A stretch of DNA of 64,000 nucleotides. It comes from Owenia fusiformis. Lineage: Eukaryota > Annelida > Polychaeta > Sabellida > Oweniidae. Under the pieces are notes generated by a model that worked only from the letters and a program-made list of their open reading frames with translations, did no database searches and was not told where the DNA came from. Location of the stretch: positions 13,376,714 to 13,440,713 of the forward strand of contig CAIIXF020000007.1 of NCBI GenBank assembly GCA_903813345.2, read 5' to 3'. Below, piece by piece: positions 30,701-60,592 of this stretch (positions are counted from its first letter, which is position 1; each line of letters begins with the position of its first letter). A program made the position numbers and the translations under genes.

Positions 30701-33700
30701 AATAATGAAGGAAATGTATTTCTTGTTATGTAAGAGAGGTGTAGTATATAAAGGGAAGTTACTAAATATCAAACAGAAGGTATCCCTTCCCTTATAACAT
30801 CCGTGTATGGATGTCATCTCAAATGATTAACATATTGTTGGTTTTCGATTTAGGGTTTATCACTCATGTAATATCACCCCATGCAGAAAGATAGCTTAAA
30901 ATAACATTCGTATGATGTAAGACTCGACATTTGTCAGGAAAGTAGAAACATTTTGTCACCCATGAAGCAAATTAATTTTTTACTACTTAATACATGGTCA
31001 AGGACAGTTACATTGAGTTTTATGTATGAGAATCGCATGACGTCTTGATATTTCAAGGTAACTTTTCAAAAAGTGATGGCGGTGATCGAAGTATTTGTAG
31101 ATTTCTTTGAAAAGCTAAGAAATATCCATCACATATCGAATATTTCAAAACAGAAAAAAACATGTATAAAATGTAAGGCCTGCAGGTCATATTCCCCCTG
31201 GTAGCATTAACATTGGTCTCATACATGTCATACAATTGATATTTGAAATACAACTATCATTCGAACTTATGATTGGGCATAAGTATGATGTTACTTTATC
31301 AATATTACATTGAAGTACGCATCATACCGTCATCATTTTTCGAACGAGTTATCTTGAAATATCACAACGGCATGCTATTCTCATACTTATAGAACTTAAT
31401 ATGATGGTCATTCATCATTAATTAATCAGTAAAAAATTAATTTGCATTATGGGTGACGAAATGTTTCTACTTTCCTGGCGAATGTTGTTTCTCACATCAT
31501 ACAAATGTAATTTTAAGCTTTCCTGATGAATGTCGAGTCCTGCATCATACACATGTAATTTTAGGCGATCTGTCTTCATGGGGGTGAATATGGCACTTAG
31601 CCCTCTGTCTAAAACCTCTCAACACATAATGTATGTATGTTACCTTGTTACATTTTATCATACACAGCTTCCCCAGATAGCCTCTGCCTGTGTTATTTAG
31701 TTCACAGAGCTTGTGAAACCCAATCTGCTGCTTTAATATTCAATGAGCCTGCATTAATATTTAATGAGCCTCATTCTGAGTTATTGCCTGGCAACTGATA
31801 GCATCATCAGCCATGATGGAGAGTGATGTTTACTTCATCTTACAACTTTCTTCAACTATAAACAGTGTTAAGCCATACATCTGGGCAATAAATTATAAGT
31901 CTATCTGCTGTGTAACTACTTCTGTGGTCTAAAATCTTGATTTCAAAGTAAAGTTGACTTTAATAAATGTGTTATCAGAACCACATGTCTTGTGGGAGTT
32001 GAAATCAGAATTTAGTGAGATAAGCTAATGTTCTCTCCTCTTTAGCACTAAATATCTATGTTTCTTGCACGTCCATATCAATGATTTTTCAGATATGTTA
32101 ACTTTTAAGTGTTCCCTATCAGATTGAAAAGGTTTGAAGTGAGGGGCAAAGCAAGTTTTCCTGAAATTAATGTTCCAAGTAGATGCCTTAATTAGGATAA
32201 GAATTTGTTACAACTTACTCAGTTGATGCTAGATGCTCTGGATGTAATATTTTCATGATGGATAATCATACAGATCATCACAAATGTGCTTTAGAAACAT
32301 TATGCAGACTTTGTGGATTAAAAAACAGAGTATTTCGTAAAAAGTATGTACCAAAATCGTGTACATTGATTCAAGCTGAACTTCTACAGTACTGTCCAGA
32401 CATAAAGTTAGATTTAGATAATCCAAACATTCACCCAAATAAAGTCTGTGAAAAATGCTATAGAACTTTAAAAGATTCAAAGAAGCAGGGAAGAGGCAAT
32501 GAAAAAAACAAGGACACCAAAGTGAAACATTATGTAAGCATAAATAGCAAATGGAATAACATTTCGGATAATTGTGAAGACTGCTGGGTTTGCAATGAAT
32601 ACTCAAATAACAAAGTACTAGGAAAGAAAAGAAAGTTGCCAAATTCGTTGGAGGGCTGCCCTGTTAGTCCAATAGCTAGTACCCCTAAAAAACAATGCGC
32701 TAATATGGACGTCAGTCTTGATATGTCAACGGAAATGACACCTGGCCGTGGGAGAGAGGCAACAATACAAGAAATTATGTCTAGAAGTATAAATGATCAT
32801 CTCTCAGTTATGGAGGAAAAGCTACTTACATGTCTTGTAAAGAGAAAATTGAAAAACTCTGTTAATAAAGAACAATTGACATGTAAAACCCGGGGAAAGG
32901 TATGTTACTTTGCTTTAAAAATCATTATAAGATAATTAAGTAAATGTATGTAAATATGGAGAATATGATTAGATATAAAGATAAGCTGATGGAAATCTGA
33001 AATACTCATACTCAGACATTTGATATCAAAATCCATAGTTTCAAATACAGCTCTTTTACTAAACGCTAAATTAAATTTATTTCAGCCACTTGTGTTTTTA
33101 AGAGTTGAAAGGGCACAGGTCAATTCATCAGTTGCTTCCTCGCCCCTAAAGAGGAGACGTGCGAGAAAGATGAATATATATAGAAAAACATCATCTGGGA
33201 AAAACAATGAAGCGGTTTTAAAGCAAATATCAAAAGAATGGCTCATTCAGTATCGAAAAAAGGCAAACAGAGAAACTCTTAACTGTTATGAGAAAAATAA
33301 AATCAAGATATCAAGGAAACAAGCCCTAGCAATAAAATCATCCGCCAAATTGTCATGGAGACAATTCAAAAACATTACTAGACATTTAAAATCGTGCAAT
33401 GTTAGTGTAGAAAGTCAAAATAAACAAAGGGAGTACAGGAAGGAATTATTGAAAGCAATTGATTTGAGAGGGGAAATGATAAAATTAGCAACAAGAAATA
33501 CTATATCACCAAATTCAAGGAAGGGTAAAGTATACAAAAAATTACCCTTAGCCTATATGAGTGATTTACCTATACATGTACACAACCATTTGGACAAGTT
33601 AAACAAATACAATATGTTACAACAAAACGAATCTATTATACCAGAAAACAAAATTTGGATAAAACTTGGTGGGGACCATGGGGGCAAAAGCCTAAAGATG

Positions 33701-36700
33701 ACTTTACAAATAGTCAATACTGAAAATCCCAACTCGACAAATAATGTGATTGTTTTTGCAGCGATGAATGCAAAGGACAGCAGGGAAAACCTTGAAACAT
33801 GTATAGGAAGATATAAGGACCAGATTTTGACATTGCAAAATATGAAATGGCATGACAAAACTATTGAACTTTTCATATGTGGTGATTACCTGTTTCTGTG
33901 CACATGCATGGGAATTTCAGGGGCAGCTGGTTGTCATCCATGTTTATGGTGCAACATAAAATCAGAAAATCTAAACGTACCACAGAACATGCGAGGAAAG
34001 TCTCCATGCAGAACATTAGATAAAATGTCAACTGACTACGAAAAGTTCTCTACTGAATCTAAAGGTAAATTGAGTCATGCAAAACTTCACAATAACGTGA
34101 TTAACAAGCCTCTACTCCCTATAGAGATAGATCATATTTGCCCCCCATATTTACATGTCCTGCTGGGTGTTGTGAAAAAACACCATGACCACCTCCTGTC
34201 ATTATGCCACAGACTTGACCTCCTAATAGCTGATAACATCGCCAGTGAAAACAGATTAATTATGGAAAGGGCAGACACACCATATGGCAAATATATCATA
34301 GAGACTGGAAAAATTCAAAAATTGAGAGACAAGTTAAATTCAATAAGAAACGAACAACAGAGGGAACAATTAAAAACAGAAATTGAAGAAAGGGTAGCAA
34401 AAAATACATTAAATGAAGAATCTGGCACTGTGGCAGCAAGTTTAGATGAAACGTTAAAAAAACACCATATAAACAGAGCTCCATATCACGGCAAGTCATT
34501 CGTTGGGAATCACTGCCATAAGTATTTGGACCCCACAGTGTACAATGATGTGTGTCAAAGTGTTGTCAGGGCTTCAAAGAAAATATGCAAGGGACTAAAA
34601 AATGAACGAAAAATTATCAAGAAAGCTGAAAAAATAAGAGAGAGGCTACAAGCTGTAAATGAAAAATTTTCTTCAGTTCATAAAATGATTTCCCATATGA
34701 ATTATATAGATGGATCAGACACATCAAATATCCAAGATGCCATAGATGACTATTTAGATGTTTACAGAGTTTGCTTCCCTAAAGCAAATATCATCCTAAA
34801 GCAACATCTGTTAGAAGACCACATGGTTGATTGGATAATAAAATACAAATGTGGTATGGGTCTCATGGGTGAGCAGGGAGTGGAAAGTATCCACGCTGTT
34901 TACAATGATCTTGGAGATAGAATGCGTGGAATTAAAAACAATTTAAATAGACTCGTAGCAACCATGACTGAACATTTTGTAAGCTGCCAACCAGAACTAT
35001 TAACATCAAATCCGATCATCAAGAAACGTAATTTTGTCAAAAAACTTCTGGATTAATTGTAAGTACATTTTAGTTTATATTCAACATACTATGGTTGGTT
35101 GTATAAATCAATTAATAGGCATCTGTAGAAGAGTTAGCTTGCATGGTATGGGGAGCTTATTGAAAGATATCTCATTTTATATAGACATTTTGGTGTGATA
35201 TATTTGGATTTACAAGCTTTGCCCCTCCAATTAAAATTAGTTACATACATAGACCATACTTTAAACTAATCATTTTACTTTACAGCAATTTATTCTAGAT
35301 GCAAAATAATGTAAAAAAGAATAAAGAATAATGCTATAATTTGGTCAAATATTGCCTTCATAGTGAAACACTGATACTTCCCACTGTACAGCAGATAGGC
35401 TTGTAATTGATACTCTGTCTTATCAGAGGCATGCAGTTAAGAAACTTAAGCAGCGCCACTTGTGGTTAATCTAATAATTACAGCTAAGTATCAGATCTGG
35501 GGAAGCTGTGCATATGATATTAATATTATTGTGCTGTATAATGTTTGTGCTTTTAAGGTGTTAGAAGAGCATCCTGAATATCTAAGTCTACCAGACCCTC
35601 CTGTTGAAAAGATTGCCATACCAGATGAAATGATTGCTCAGGTAATTATCGCAAACAACATTGTAATCCAAGACTGCAGGCCAGAATTAAGCAATGAAAT
35701 TGAGTATTTAGCAAAAGGCTAACACTATAAGCACTGTTTAGATGCCAATTGAGAGAGCACTGCCAAGATTTTGGCATTCAAATGAATATAATCAATATTC
35801 TAGGCATTAACTGTCAGAATGTTTAAATTGATAGTAATGCAGTATATTGCTACACCACCAAGCTTAAATCTAAATAACTTGCATATTTATATCAAAGAAT
35901 AATATTTCGGCCAAGTCAATGAGTCAACATGAACCCCTAGGGCCAACCATCCAATTCATTGACAGTATGGTTTATAAGTATGGTATTGTAGTGTTAGCGG
36001 TCACAGATTGACAACGTCAACGCGGTAGCCTGGCGTCGGTCAACTGGAGGGAGTTAATTATCTGTTTGTAAATATACATGTATATGTATTATTTTTTCCT
36101 TAGTTCATGTATATGTAATTGACAATGTATTCATCTATTTAACAATATCAAATGATAACATTTCGACAGGGTAATTGAGTCAGTGTGAACCCCCAGGGTC
36201 AACCAGGGGTTTCCTTGATTCATAGACAGTGTTATCATTATGGTTCTGGAATGTCAGCTATGAATACAGTTTGGCAACGTCTACGCAGTAGCCTGGCGTT
36301 AGTCAACAAAGGTGTGTTGTCTGTTTGTAAATATACTTTTTTTCTTAAATTCATGTAATATACATGGTGTCAAATAAGTCCCGTCCCCCCTGCTATAGCT
36401 AAAACCATAACAGACGGTACCTAGTGTGATATACCATTGGAAAGATCATCCAAAGTTATGTTAACTCACCAACTCTCAAGTATTTTGGATGAAATTTACC
36501 TATATTTTTATGATGTCTTTTATAGTTAACGTGCCCTCCATTAAGTAGCTTTTTTGCGTCAAAATGACAAAGATATGACCTCAGAAATATGTCAAAAAGT
36601 TAATCTTTTTCGCATTTCACTTGTTACAAAAAGGTTTCACCACTTTCCTTGCACCTCTATTTTCTACACATCTAACCCTATCCAGATATTGGTTAAATTC

Positions 36701-56469: not shown

Positions 56470-56475
56470 CCTTGT
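56470..56475. repeat. Left target-site duplication CCTTGT
   Basis: CCTTGT immediately before the AGT terminus, identical to 60587-60592. Confidence 0.9.
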
Positions 56476-56909
56476 AGTAGATATAAAATGTCAGGTTCTG
56501 GCTCGCCACGGGCCGCCACGGGCCGCCACGGGCCCGGGGCTTTCAAAATCTCTGAGAGATAAAGATGAGCAGGAGATATAGATGAGCAGGAGATAAATTA
56601 ATTGAATGGGGATTAGGAGATAACTTAATTGGATGGGGCTTTCATCTTAAATGAGTGTTAGATAAGATGCGCATGACATCATTGTTATCTTAAATGAGTG
56701 TTAGATAAGATGCGCATGACATCATTGTTATCTTAAATGGGTGAGAGATAAGATGCGCATGACATCATTGTTATCTTAAATGGGTGAGAGATAAGATGCG
56801 CATGACATCATTGTTATCTTAAATGGGTGAGAGATAAGATGCGCATGACATCATTGTTATCTTAAATGGGTGAGAGATAAGATGCGCATGACATCATTGT
56901 TATCTTAAA
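56476..56909 (+). repeat. Left TIR of the Polinton, with six 43-bp units
   Basis: Begins AGTAGATATAAAATGTCAGG, then three CCGCCACGGG-type units, then a spacer. About six 43-bp units follow (ATAAGATGCGCATGACATCA TTGTTATCTT...): two with GAGTGTT and four with GGGTGAGAG. Confidence 0.92.
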
Positions 56910-57641
56910 TGGGTGAGAAATGTATTTCTTGGACTGAATAGTAAAGTACAAAATAAATCCCTTTAATATTATTTTAAATTTGGTATAATCCATTGACAGT
57001 GTTTACAATTCTACTTTCAATATTAACCCAACATTGAAAAGAATCAATAATCCTATTGAGCTGGTCAAACAAATACTGTTGGCATAAAAGGAAAGAGAAC
57101 TGGATTTTGGATTAAATATGAGTACAGATGAAAAGGTTTATTTATTTAAGTCCTATATTGAATTGACCGTTGAAAAGGTTTATTTATTGAAGTCCTATAT
57201 TGAATTGACCATTTGATCTTACTCTACTTGATTTCAACAATAATGGTCTTTTAATGTAATAATTGAATGTTGACATTTAACTGTGTCATCACAATGTTAA
57301 TCCTTCATATTCTAGAACATCTTTTGTTTACAGTGTTAATCCCCTTTTTCAAAAACAGATTATAGCGATGAGTCATTATTCTGGAAGGTTCCAGAAGTTT
57401 GACAGAAAAATCTATTGAATGTATCTTAAGAATATAAATAATCTTTCAACTTTCTAATCTGGAATGGTCAATAACAACAAGAACTACATTAATTCACGAC
57501 ATCAGTTTCTAAGAATATCACGACATCAGATGTTGAATAGAAGTTGATATTGATGCCACTTGACAATATATATTGAGTGAAATATTCAAATCTTTATCAT
57601 TTCAATCCTCATACTTGATATATACACATCAACTAAAAACC

Positions 57642-58016
57642 ATGAAACTAGTACCATATGTAGACAACCCAGAACACTGGTTGAAACTTATTAGAGCTGG
57701 TAGACAGAATAGATTGAAAGTATCTCAAACAGGAAGAGGGTGGATAGGCATAGATGACATTAAAGAAGATACTAAACCGGTACAAATCATTTCACCCATG
57801 ACTGCAGTTGTCGACAGAGCAAAGGCACAATTGAAACGTCAACATGAAGATATGAAATATGAAGAGTATAGACCATCTAAAGAGAAACAACAAAACTCTG
57901 TAAATATAAAGAAGAAACATCCATTCAAACAGAAAAAACGAAACACTTCGAATACAAGAAAGAAACGGACATTCTTATACAAACCACCTGGTATCCCAGC
58001 AAGGATGGACGATTAA
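57642..58016 (+). CDS. Small basic Polinton protein (124 aa)
   Basis: Starts at ATG 57642 (MKLVPYVDNPEHW); the open frame extends 23 codons further up but without a better ATG. The first half is globular-looking with GRGWIGI near residue 43. The second half, about residues 75-118, is very Lys/Arg-rich (KKKHPFKQKKRNTSNTRKKR), suggesting nucleic-acid binding. I do not recognise the family with certainty; a DNA-condensing core protein of a Polinton/adintovirus-like particle would fit the position and charge. It lies 496 bp upstream of the ATPase on the same strand. Confidence 0.7.
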   Translation: MKLVPYVDNPEHWLKLIRAGRQNRLKVSQTGRGWIGIDDIKEDTKPVQIISPMTAVVDRAKAQLKRQHEDMKYEEYRPSKEKQQNSVNIKKKHPFKQKKRNTSNTRKKRTFLYKPPGIPARMDD

Positions 58017-58109
58017 AGTTATTTGTATATAATACTGAACGATATGAATAAAAATAAATAACTAAAGTTTCAAATGTTGTTTGCTATTTACATTCATTTA
58101 CAAATGTTT

Positions 58110-58420
58110 GAATATGTATGAACATTAGTTAGCATTACCTCATTAGCATCTGTTAGCATTATCATTAGCATATGTTAGCATCTGTTAGCATTATCATTAG
58201 CATCTGTTAGCATTAGCATTACCATTAGCATCTATTAGCATCATCATTAGCATATGTTAGCATCTGTTAGCATTAGTATCTGTTAGCATTAGCATTACCA
58301 TTAGCATCTATTAGCATCATCATTAGCATATGTTAGCATCTGTTAGCATTAGTATCTGTTAGCATTAGCATTACCATTAGCATCTATTAGCATTAGCAAC
58401 TGTTAGCATACATTTAAATT
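58110..58420. repeat. Degenerate TTAGCAT(CTG) repeat between the two Polinton genes
   Basis: About 25 imperfect copies of TTAGCATCTG/TTAGCATTA in nested higher-order units, just upstream of the ATPase gene. Confidence 0.85.
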
Positions 58421-58511
58421 AGCATTATTGAACATGCCTTTGAACACATATACATAACAGAATGAAATTATGAATTGCATCCATTTTGTTATCAGTCTTT
58501 GAAGCGGTAAC

Positions 58512-60062
58512 ATGTATTACTGTCATTGTGGTAAAGAATTTAGACATGCTTCAAGTTTAGCGAGACACAAAGGCATGCACTCTGCACAAGGTAAAGAAGA
58601 CATACATGTAGGTATGAACAAAGTGTTGCATCACCCCTTTACCATGTTGGTCACTGGCCCCACAGGCTGTGGGAAAACTACCTTTGTCAAGCAACTTTTG
58701 GAAAATGTAGAGCAACGCATCCAACCCCCTCCACAGCGTATTATCTGGTGTTTTGGACAATGGCAACCACTTTACATAGAGATTAAGAACACACATCCTG
58801 GAATAGAATTCATGATGGGAATTCCAGATGATTTAAACAGTCCAGATTTCTTAAATCCTAGAGTGCGTAATTTAATGATTGTTGATGACTTGATGTCAGA
58901 TGCTACCAAAGACAGGAAGATCTCTGATTTGTTTACTAAAGGGAGTCATCACAGAAACCTGAGTGTAATCTGTTTACTGCAGAATATCTTCCATCATGGA
59001 AGGGAGAATCGAACCATCAGCTTGAATACACATTACATTGTACTGTACAAGAATCCAAGAGATCAAAACCAAGTAAGAGTACTTTCTCAGCAGATGTATC
59101 CTGGGAACAGTCACAAACTCTTAGATGCTTATAATGCAGCTACTCTAAAACCATATGGGCATTTACTGATTGATCTAAAGCAAGAAACCCCAGAGCATTT
59201 AAGACTGTGTTATGATAAGACTCGTCAAACAATGAATGAGCATGATAGTAGTCATCTAAAGGGAGAACCATTTACTAAGACAGTACAATCCAATGACATA
59301 GCACTACCATATGATTTGAATTCTATTGAAAACCCATTTAAAGAGATGTCACAGTATGATACTTCAATAATGAAACCTCCATATCAGTTCACTGCGAGTA
59401 TAAAAGATACTATCCCCAGCAACGTTATGCATTCTGACAACAAAAATTACAACATGAAAGAAATATGTCATTGTGACTATTGTGGCGTCATGTTAATATC
59501 AAGAATGGATCTACAGAATCATATCCAAAACTGTCCATTGAATGAAGATATAGACGACCCTCCAATGAAGAAGGTATGCACTGAAGGGTTTCAGGAAAAC
59601 CCTGTGTATATACGGCTAAAGGATAAAGCTATTAATAAATTTAAAGATCAAATTGAAGAACAAGAGGCAAAATATATAGACAAACAGAAGGGGAATTCTG
59701 AGTATGATAGAAGATATATGGCGAATCAAAAATTCCTACCCAAAATAAGAGAAACGTTTAAGACATACTACAAATATTTAGTTGAAGATTTACTAGATTT
59801 ACAATGTAGTCCAACACATAAAGAAATCATGGTAGACATCCAACAATTAATGAGTACAGGCATACCATTTGAAGATGCTTTTAAGAAGACCATGTTACAC
59901 CACAACTATATGACAGAAGACATTATTAATGTAGGACTTTATGATGATGCAAATGTTTCAGATGAATCGTATACTGACTCTAGTGACAATGACGAAGCTA
60001 GTGAATCTAGTGATAATGAATCTGATGAAACCAATGATTCTGCTAGTGATAATAAAGATTAA
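58512..60062 (+). CDS. Polinton FtsK/HerA-type packaging ATPase with zinc fingers (516 aa)
   Basis: ATG at 58512. The ATPase core has Walker A GPTGCGKT (residues 49-56), Walker B LMIVDD (121-126), then a polar motif SVICLLQN (151-158) and YIVLYKNPRDQNQV. These are typical of the A32-like DNA-packaging ATPases of Polintons, adintoviruses and related viruses. A zinc finger precedes it (C4, C6, H19, H23; the first pair has one residue between cysteines instead of two). A second, C2HC, follows (C321, C324, H337, C341). The last 40 residues are Asp/Ser/Glu-rich. Viral packaging ATPases are usually 200-300 residues, so the added halves are unusual. Function is inferred from family. Confidence 0.85.
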   Translation: MYYCHCGKEFRHASSLARHKGMHSAQGKEDIHVGMNKVLHHPFTMLVTGPTGCGKTTFVKQLLENVEQRIQPPPQRIIWCFGQWQPLYIEIKNTHPGIEFMMGIPDDLNSPDFLNPRVRNLMIVDDLMSDATKDRKISDLFTKGSHHRNLSVICLLQNIFHHGRENRTISLNTHYIVLYKNPRDQNQVRVLSQQMYPGNSHKLLDAYNAATLKPYGHLLIDLKQETPEHLRLCYDKTRQTMNEHDSSHLKGEPFTKTVQSNDIALPYDLNSIENPFKEMSQYDTSIMKPPYQFTASIKDTIPSNVMHSDNKNYNMKEICHCDYCGVMLISRMDLQNHIQNCPLNEDIDDPPMKKVCTEGFQENPVYIRLKDKAINKFKDQIEEQEAKYIDKQKGNSEYDRRYMANQKFLPKIRETFKTYYKYLVEDLLDLQCSPTHKEIMVDIQQLMSTGIPFEDAFKKTMLHHNYMTEDIINVGLYDDANVSDESYTDSSDNDEASESSDNESDETNDSASDNKD

Positions 60063-60162
60063 TTAGATTATGTGGTACTTTTGTTTGTAAAATAAATGCA
60101 AACAAATTAAACAATATTGTACATTAATTTTTTCTCAGTTATTTAGTAATTGATGTTTGATT

Positions 60163-60586
60163 TTTAAGATAACAATGATGTCATGCGCATCTTATCTCTC
60201 ACCCATTTAAGATAACAATGATGTCATGCGCATCTTATCTCTCACCCATTTAAGATAACAATGATGTCATGCGCATCTTATCTCTCACCCATTTAAGATA
60301 ACAATGATGTCATGCGCATCTTATCTCTCACCCATTTAAGATAACAATGATGTCATGCGCATCTTATCTAACACTCATTTAAGATAACAATGATGTCATG
60401 CGCATCTTATCTAACACTCATTTAAGATGAAAGCCCCATCCAATTAAGTTATCTCCTAATCCCCATTCAATTAATTTATCTCCTGCTCATCTATATCTCC
60501 TGCTCATCTTTATCTCTCAGAGATTTTGAAAGCCCCGGGCCCGTGGCGGCCCGTGGCGAGCCAGAACCTGACATTTTATATCTACT
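60163..60586 (-). repeat. Right TIR of the Polinton
   Basis: Exact reverse complement of the left TIR by my reading, including the 2+4 pattern of 43-bp units, except for one missing GGGCCGCCAC unit (10 bp). Confidence 0.92.
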
Positions 60587-60592
60587 CCTTGT
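60587..60592. repeat. Right target-site duplication CCTTGT
   Basis: CCTTGT immediately after the right terminus. Confidence 0.9.

Follow-up and report, generated by a model that had tools for sequence, protein, structure and literature searches.

Is a small element with Polinton-type ends and only two genes a decayed remnant, or does it live as a satellite of larger elements in the same genome? The question is raised by a 4,111-bp mobile element at positions 56476-60586 of a 64,000-nt stretch of the annelid Owenia fusiformis (G000:C7:13376714-13440713, on contig CAIIXF020000007.1), which was analysed as a whole and is called the window here. An earlier, sequence-only reading had recorded AGT termini, a CCTTGT target site duplication (TSD), terminal inverted repeats (TIRs) of 434 bp (left) and 424 bp (right) and two intact genes, all of which were confirmed by re-reading, and had proposed a candidate satellite. 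We consider the element to be probably non-autonomous, a satellite with two genes that depends on Polinton-type elements elsewhere in the genome. The best reading of the two-gene elements as a group is that they are recurrent satellites with their own motor and cis array, borrowing capsid, integrase and polymerase.

The element runs from AGTAGATA to TATCTACT (AGT...ACT type). Its TIRs are 97.7% identical over 434 columns, and their outer 240 nt contain no mismatches, differing by length gaps only. Two intact ATG open reading frames (ORFs), ORF1 for a small basic protein and ORF2 for a packaging-type ATPase, are all the ORFs of at least 100 aa inside it. Genome searches gave no polymerase B (PolB), integrase or major capsid protein (MCP) match within 12 kb of the element, and no protease gene was found in it, as judged by ORF reading only. 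No second copy was found within the 64-kb window.

Related elements were sought in the 498-Mb assembly (525 contigs). The TIR search, with the best 40 of 70 candidates scored, gave 41 matches; 24 further elements were fetched and, with the window's, 25 were read, which are the best-scoring part and not a full census. Every one of the 25 starts with AGTAGATA and has exact 6-bp TSDs, so the ends are not a chance resemblance. Nine are two-gene elements of 3.9-4.5 kb (the window element, L035, L037, L038, L050, L052, L054, L055 and L057). Seven capsid-bearing elements of 8.0-8.5 kb (L039, L042, L045, L046, L051, L053 and L059) encode an ATPase, an integrase, a penton-like protein, an ORF1-like protein, a major capsid protein and a protease, and all seven lack a polymerase. 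One 14.5-kb element (L048, L049) has the capsid-bearing gene set plus PolB. The other eight (3.8-7.2 kb) have no ATPase and are palindromes, their inverted arms measuring 1.4-2.9 kb and matching each other at 97.7-100%; two inverted ORF1 copies were found in four of them (L040, L041, L043 and L047) and no recognised gene in four (L036, L044, L056 and L058). The ORF1 genome search added three further inverted ORF1 pairs beyond the 25 elements. The sequence-only reading had asked whether all same-TIR elements keep exactly two genes, which holds for just 9 of the 25 read; a longer Polinton with matching TIRs, which it had also suggested looking for, does exist, with capsid and integrase genes and in one case polymerase.

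Full-length copies of ORF2 number nine, at 98-100% identity, and all lie within 3.9-4.5-kb elements beside an intact ORF1. None contains a stop, which goes against decay of the ATPase frames, an outcome that the sequence-only reading had named as refuting its proposal. One 95% fragment was found besides these, among the best 83 of 254 candidates: a lone C-terminal piece (aa 239-516, G000:C6:19885021-19885854) with no stop and no ORF1 match nearby.

Comparison with the capsid-bearing elements led us to reject a simple internal deletion as the origin of the two-gene element. Type-matched pairs have left ends in common over 690 bp at 97.2% (L055/L042) and 684 bp at 97.5% (L038/L053), and right ends, at 96%, over 244-250 bp. 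In the outer TIR, the window element and L042 are 93% identical. Against these ends at about 97%, the ATPase genes can be aligned over about 520 bp at 66-67% nucleotide identity and their proteins are 39-43% identical, the motor aligning well and the linker, second finger and C-terminal part poorly. A deletion derivative would have kept genes near-identical to its parent's, and the two-gene element has not. Among the 83 ATPase loci scored, matches outside the 98-100% group that span at least 440 ORF2 residues are all at 48% or below, and shorter, mostly core-only matches reach 50-65%. The outcome that the sequence-only reading had named as fatal to its proposal, a simple internal deletion of longer copies, was therefore not what we found: the ends are shared, ORF1 is chimeric and the motor belongs to another lineage. 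Because the ends and the ORF1 start are shared while the ATPase has diverged, we regard the two-gene element, on these alignments, as a composite that joins Polinton-group ends and ORF1 start with a motor from elsewhere. As in a satellite, capsid genes are absent but the cis ends are those of a capsid-bearing element.

The ends have also been exchanged between copies. In six of the nine two-gene elements both 40-nt termini equal those of capsid-bearing elements, and these fall into three types: that of L051 and the 14.5-kb element, that of L039 and L053, and that of L042, L045, L046 and L059. The window element belongs to the first, and the outer 40 nt of its left TIR recur unchanged in L051 and the 14.5-kb element; L050, L052 and L054 match no capsid-bearing terminus exactly. 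Differences in ORF2 do not track the terminal types. Between L035 and L057 there are 6 differences in the 1,551 ORF2 sites, yet 13 in the 40 terminal ones; L035 shares its termini exactly with the window copy, from which its ORF2 departs at 16 sites. Within a single copy, the two TIRs are almost identical in six of the nine elements; in the other three, of about 240 aligned sites, 13 differ in L054, 64 in L050 and 70 in L057, the higher counts perhaps being due to shifted repeats. Ends and cores have been recombined between element copies, and the exchange of ends points to co-replication.

A similar exchange is suggested for the start of ORF1. Its homologue in the capsid-bearing elements is the gene between the penton-like and major capsid genes, and agreement with it is confined to the N-terminal part (Table 1), the C-terminal part showing none. 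Over codons 1-72, satellite and capsid-bearing ORF1 differ by a dS of about 0.6 and a dN of 0.16; the first 35 or so codons are almost identical in DNA, which suggests that this start passed between the two kinds of element. In Pfam, ORF1 resembles MBR1 weakly, at a score below the cut-off, and this match was not used.

The motors differ together with the repeats beside them. A TTAGCAT array of 27-80 motif starts lies between ORF1 and ORF2 in all nine two-gene elements, with its final unit beginning exactly 93 bp before ORF2 each time, and a TGTTCAC array is found in none of them. The eight capsid-bearing elements all have a TGTTCAC array (35-95 motif starts), which stops 131 or 152 bp before the finger motif of their ATPase; the TTAGCAT array, once taken as common to all elements, is absent from all eight, and that idea was dropped. 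Array type and ATPase type thus co-occur in 17 of 17 elements. ATPase-less elements carry the TGTTCAC array in 8 of 8 cases and TTAGCAT as well in 7 of 8. Among the 17 capsid-less elements, then, the helper array is present in 0 of 9 with a motor vs 8 of 8 without, a split with a chance of 1 in 24,310 if the elements were independent, which the palindromes are not. Since the array follows the ATPase type and motor-less elements carry the helper array, we read motor and array as a putative matched pair, so that an element without a motor would need the helper's address. A precedent comes from adenovirus, where the packaging ATPase IVa2 is described as binding to repeats within the packaging domain at the left end; it also activates transcription, and binding of core protein VII is reported (PMC5033970).

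The same pairing of an ATPase with ORF1 recurs elsewhere in the genome. The 83 of 254 ATPase loci were compared, over a 12-kb range, with the matches from four other searches, in which scoring reached 94 of 96 candidates for the capsid, 53 of 126 for PolB, all 132 for ORF1 and 112 of 575 for integrase. Three ATPase families have ORF1 nearby and no capsid, integrase or PolB match within that range: family A, to which the window element belongs (9 of 9 full-length loci), family B, at 45-51% to ORF2 (17 of 17), and family C, at 36-38% (16 of 16). At random places, an ORF1 match falls within 12 kb in about 0.6% of cases. In family B, ORF1 is encoded on the other strand, downstream of the ATPase and mostly 300-500 bp from it; in family C it lies directly downstream on the same strand. 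That the gene order is different in each of the three families suggests more than one origin of the pair. At two more ATPase loci, of which one is a piece, ORF1 is the sole match; the other 38 have capsid and/or integrase matches, with PolB too in 16, and the lone C6 fragment has neither.

Selection was assessed by pooled dN/dS and by a site test for synonymous excess relative to random change at the observed transition share. Among two-gene elements, dN/dS is 0.07 for ORF1 and 0.37 for ORF2. The selection that the sequence-only reading had proposed for both frames is clear for ORF1 (11 synonymous and 4 nonsynonymous sites, P=0.0003) and only borderline for ORF2 (19 vs 31, n=50, P=0.058). In the capsid-bearing elements, the same test gave P=0.005 for the ATPase (34 synonymous, 57 nonsynonymous), P=0.011 for the integrase (20, 28), P=0.11 for ORF1 (6, 7) and P=0.60 for the capsid (2, 4).

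ORF2 matches Pox_A32 in Pfam (E 1e-9, 38.7 bits; cut-off 22.8) and is laid out as an N-terminal finger, an A32-type motor, a second finger-like motif, a helical C-terminal domain and an acidic tail. Its AlphaFold model (mean pLDDT 75, pTM 0.46) is predicted to have a RecA/FtsK-like fold, and the top PDB match by Foldseek is the packaging ATPase B204 of Sulfolobus turreted icosahedral virus (E 1.2e-5; TM-score 0.54 by target, 0.24 by query). The finger and the long C-terminal part were dropped as marks of a satellite: the ATPase of capsid-bearing elements has both, as do many relatives from a database search that could return only proteins of 0.55-1.75 times the query length. No ORF2 relative was confirmed in viral contigs or phage records. 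A predicted Pinctada protein (P0070) has a Polinton integrase domain fused to an ORF2-type ATPase, so ORF2-type ATPases adjoin integrase in other animals too. Four GTDB contigs from metagenome-assembled genomes (MAGs; L001-L004) carry animal-type Polinton genes, with Polinton-type ATPases of 205, 207 and 242 aa, one cut by the contig end; two come from an Escarpia laminata symbiont MAG, and all four are apparently host or eukaryotic contamination.

Taken with what is known of Polintons, these observations allow a mechanism to be sketched. The helper's protein-primed polymerase and integrase would copy and insert the satellite via the shared ends. The satellite ATPase would read the TTAGCAT array and drive satellite DNA into helper capsids. 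ORF1 may be a DNA-associated virion protein whose shared N-terminal part fits the helper shell and whose basic part binds DNA, as its pI would allow. The satellite would thereby supply packaging specificity and borrow everything else. Since a polymerase is missing from all but one of the 8 capsid-bearing elements read, helpers too would need one from elsewhere. The proposal of a candidate satellite is in this sense supported, and packaging by a helper is what we infer.

A number of observations weigh against this reading. Scoring was partial for integrase, PolB and ATPase candidates, and families B and C are known from match coordinates only. An MCP match is missing at fourteen integrase-bearing ATPase loci, 13 of which have PolB, and the MCP query may therefore overlook lineages. 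Four of the eight ATPase-less elements contain ORF1 but no motor, so a motor is not strictly needed, and ORF1 is suggested to be the more general requirement. RAD51 and KaiC score close behind B204 for the ORF2 model, and for this reason the family assignment of ORF2 rests on Pfam; the N-terminal fingers are alike in ORF2 and in the ATPase of capsid-bearing elements. The arrays sit near the palindrome centres and could be promoters or fold-back points, and the shared descent of the palindromes weakens the 8 of 8 count. ORF2 constraint is borderline, as noted, and the copies are young (mean dS 0.019), so the stop-free frames are partly due to youth.

Youth and borderline constraint in ORF2 would suit a plain non-autonomous transposon whose ends integrase and polymerase recognise in trans and whose two genes are passengers from an unseen Polinton lineage. 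Shared ends alone would explain its mobility, and the ATPase-less palindromes do move without a motor. We nevertheless think this improbable: the gene pair recurs in three ATPase families and three gene orders (for two of the families as judged from match coordinates), ORF1 is under constraint, motor and array are paired, and the 83 loci scored include no parent with an ORF2-type ATPase. The pairing could instead mean that the array serves expression or replication, as a promoter or origin bound by the finger-bearing ATPase or a host factor. The constant 93 bp from array to ATPase start in 9 of 9 satellites fits such a role, and so does the double function of adenovirus IVa2 as a transcriptional activator (PMC5033970). 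However, an array is retained even where the ATPase gene is missing, in 8 of 8 such elements, and packaging and expression roles can coexist, as in IVa2; as a substitute for packaging, this explanation seems unlikely to us. That ORF1 matches the capsid-bearing ORF1 in its N-terminal part and is different in the rest would also be expected of an interfering or immunity element, with ORF1 and ORF2 as a competing virion protein and motor that block capsid-bearing elements on behalf of the host or the element. The copies are mobile and have exchanged ends, as expected for a co-replicating parasite, nothing found points to host use, and interference is compatible with satellite life. We give this explanation very little credence.

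The satellite reading has a wider and much more tentative form, which we hold possible but rather doubtful: a community of split virus-like elements in one genome that works as a multipartite, mutually complementing endogenous virus. It would consist of capsid-and-integrase elements that lack a polymerase, of polymerase elements, and of two-gene satellites from three families or more. Each satellite family would combine a motor of its own with an ORF1-type virion protein, and family A, the one read, would also have its own repeat array as an address. Packaging specificity would then be a module changed by swapping motor and array.

Table 1. Positions in the window of the features of the two-gene element
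Feature	Position	Strand	Basis
Left TSD, CCTTGT	56470-56475	.	direct repeat, exact
Left TIR	56476-56909	+	TIR comparison
43-bp tandem units, left TIR	56644-56921	+	repeat scan
Stretch near left end, 98.7% to capsid-bearing L042 (element positions 341-873)	56816-57348	+	
ORF1 portion common to capsid-bearing elements	57641-57836	+	83-84% nt; 84% aa, residues 1-67
ORF1, 124-aa basic protein, pI 10.3	57642-58016	+	ORF reading
TTAGCAT array, 27 motif starts	58129-58425	+	candidate packaging address of ORF2
ORF2, 516-aa A32-type packaging ATPase	58512-60062	+	Pfam, ORF reading
ORF2 N-terminal C2H2 finger, aa 4-23	58521-58580	+	Pfam match below family cut-off
ORF2 Walker A GPTGCGKT, aa 49-56	58656-58679	+	sequence motif
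ORF2 second finger-like motif, aa 321-341	59472-59534	+	sequence motif
Right TIR	60163-60586	-	TIR comparison
43-bp tandem units, right TIR	60163-60428	-	repeat scan
Right TSD, CCTTGT	60587-60592	.	direct repeat, exact

Other loci met in the searches are recorded here. Two PolB loci (G000:C91:97615-100188 and G000:C11:3248236-3250812) are 94-96% identical to the PolB of the 14.5-kb element and have no capsid, integrase or ATPase matches within 12 kb, the one on C91 possibly lying near a contig end; they are possible polymerase-only partners. A second locus matching PolB, ATPase, capsid and ORF1 lies at G000:C369:4566-15898, with the integrase match split over two frames. Integrase frames of 373 aa, at 74-75% to the Polinton integrase, occur at C1:9399204, C1:15586883, C2:1939710, C3:13026829 and other places in G000; as many of them have an equal score, they are probably near-identical copies, and they possibly belong to another element type. 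Elsewhere in the window (32201-35056), two long frames of 244 and 688 aa (stop to stop) belong to another gene or element.

In the open-licence PMC literature we found no paper on a Polinton satellite of this kind; subscription journals and Repbase, which lay outside this scope, may already catalogue non-autonomous Polintons. Polinton virions are described as predicted, not observed, in a 2021 survey of vertebrate Mavericks (PMC8097293). If the element is a satellite, the retention of a packaging-type motor and of a virion-type protein under constraint, in an element with no capsid gene, would be indirect evidence for packaging in animals, and the competition for packaging seen in phage satellites would extend to animal dsDNA viruses. 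The TTAGCAT and TGTTCAC arrays are candidate packaging signals, and the packaging question becomes testable in a named genome.

The window element has the 6-bp TSD, AGT-starting ends, long TIRs and A32-type (A32/FtsK-like) packaging ATPase of Polintons/Mavericks, and its intact ORF1 and ORF2, kept in 9 of 9 copies, set it apart from miniature inverted-repeat transposable elements, which have no coding capacity. It differs from autonomous Polintons in the absence of their gene set (protein-primed PolB, RVE integrase, MCP and protease), and its length of 4 kb compares with the 15-20 kb given for Polintons/Mavericks (PMC4028283). In vertebrate Mavericks, as surveyed, the PW gene has the position of the ORF1 homologue, between the minor and major capsid genes, whereas the end motif is (AGT)2 and not the AGTAGA of these elements (PMC8097293). 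The palindromic elements, with their doubled left ends, look similar to defective-interfering genomes of the adenovirus type; unlike those, the two-gene element does not derive by deletion from the capsid-bearing elements read. Virophages likewise depend on a larger viral element, but are described as encoding their own structural genes (PMC11389934), of which the window element has none. Comparable in their way of life may be the phage satellites, namely phage-inducible chromosomal islands and Staphylococcus aureus pathogenicity islands (PICI/SaPI) and P4, which are small, use the helper's particle and in some cases redirect packaging (PMC11389934); the present elements, in which any redirection of packaging is putative, differ in residing in an animal genome, in having Polinton-type ends and in keeping a whole motor ATPase.

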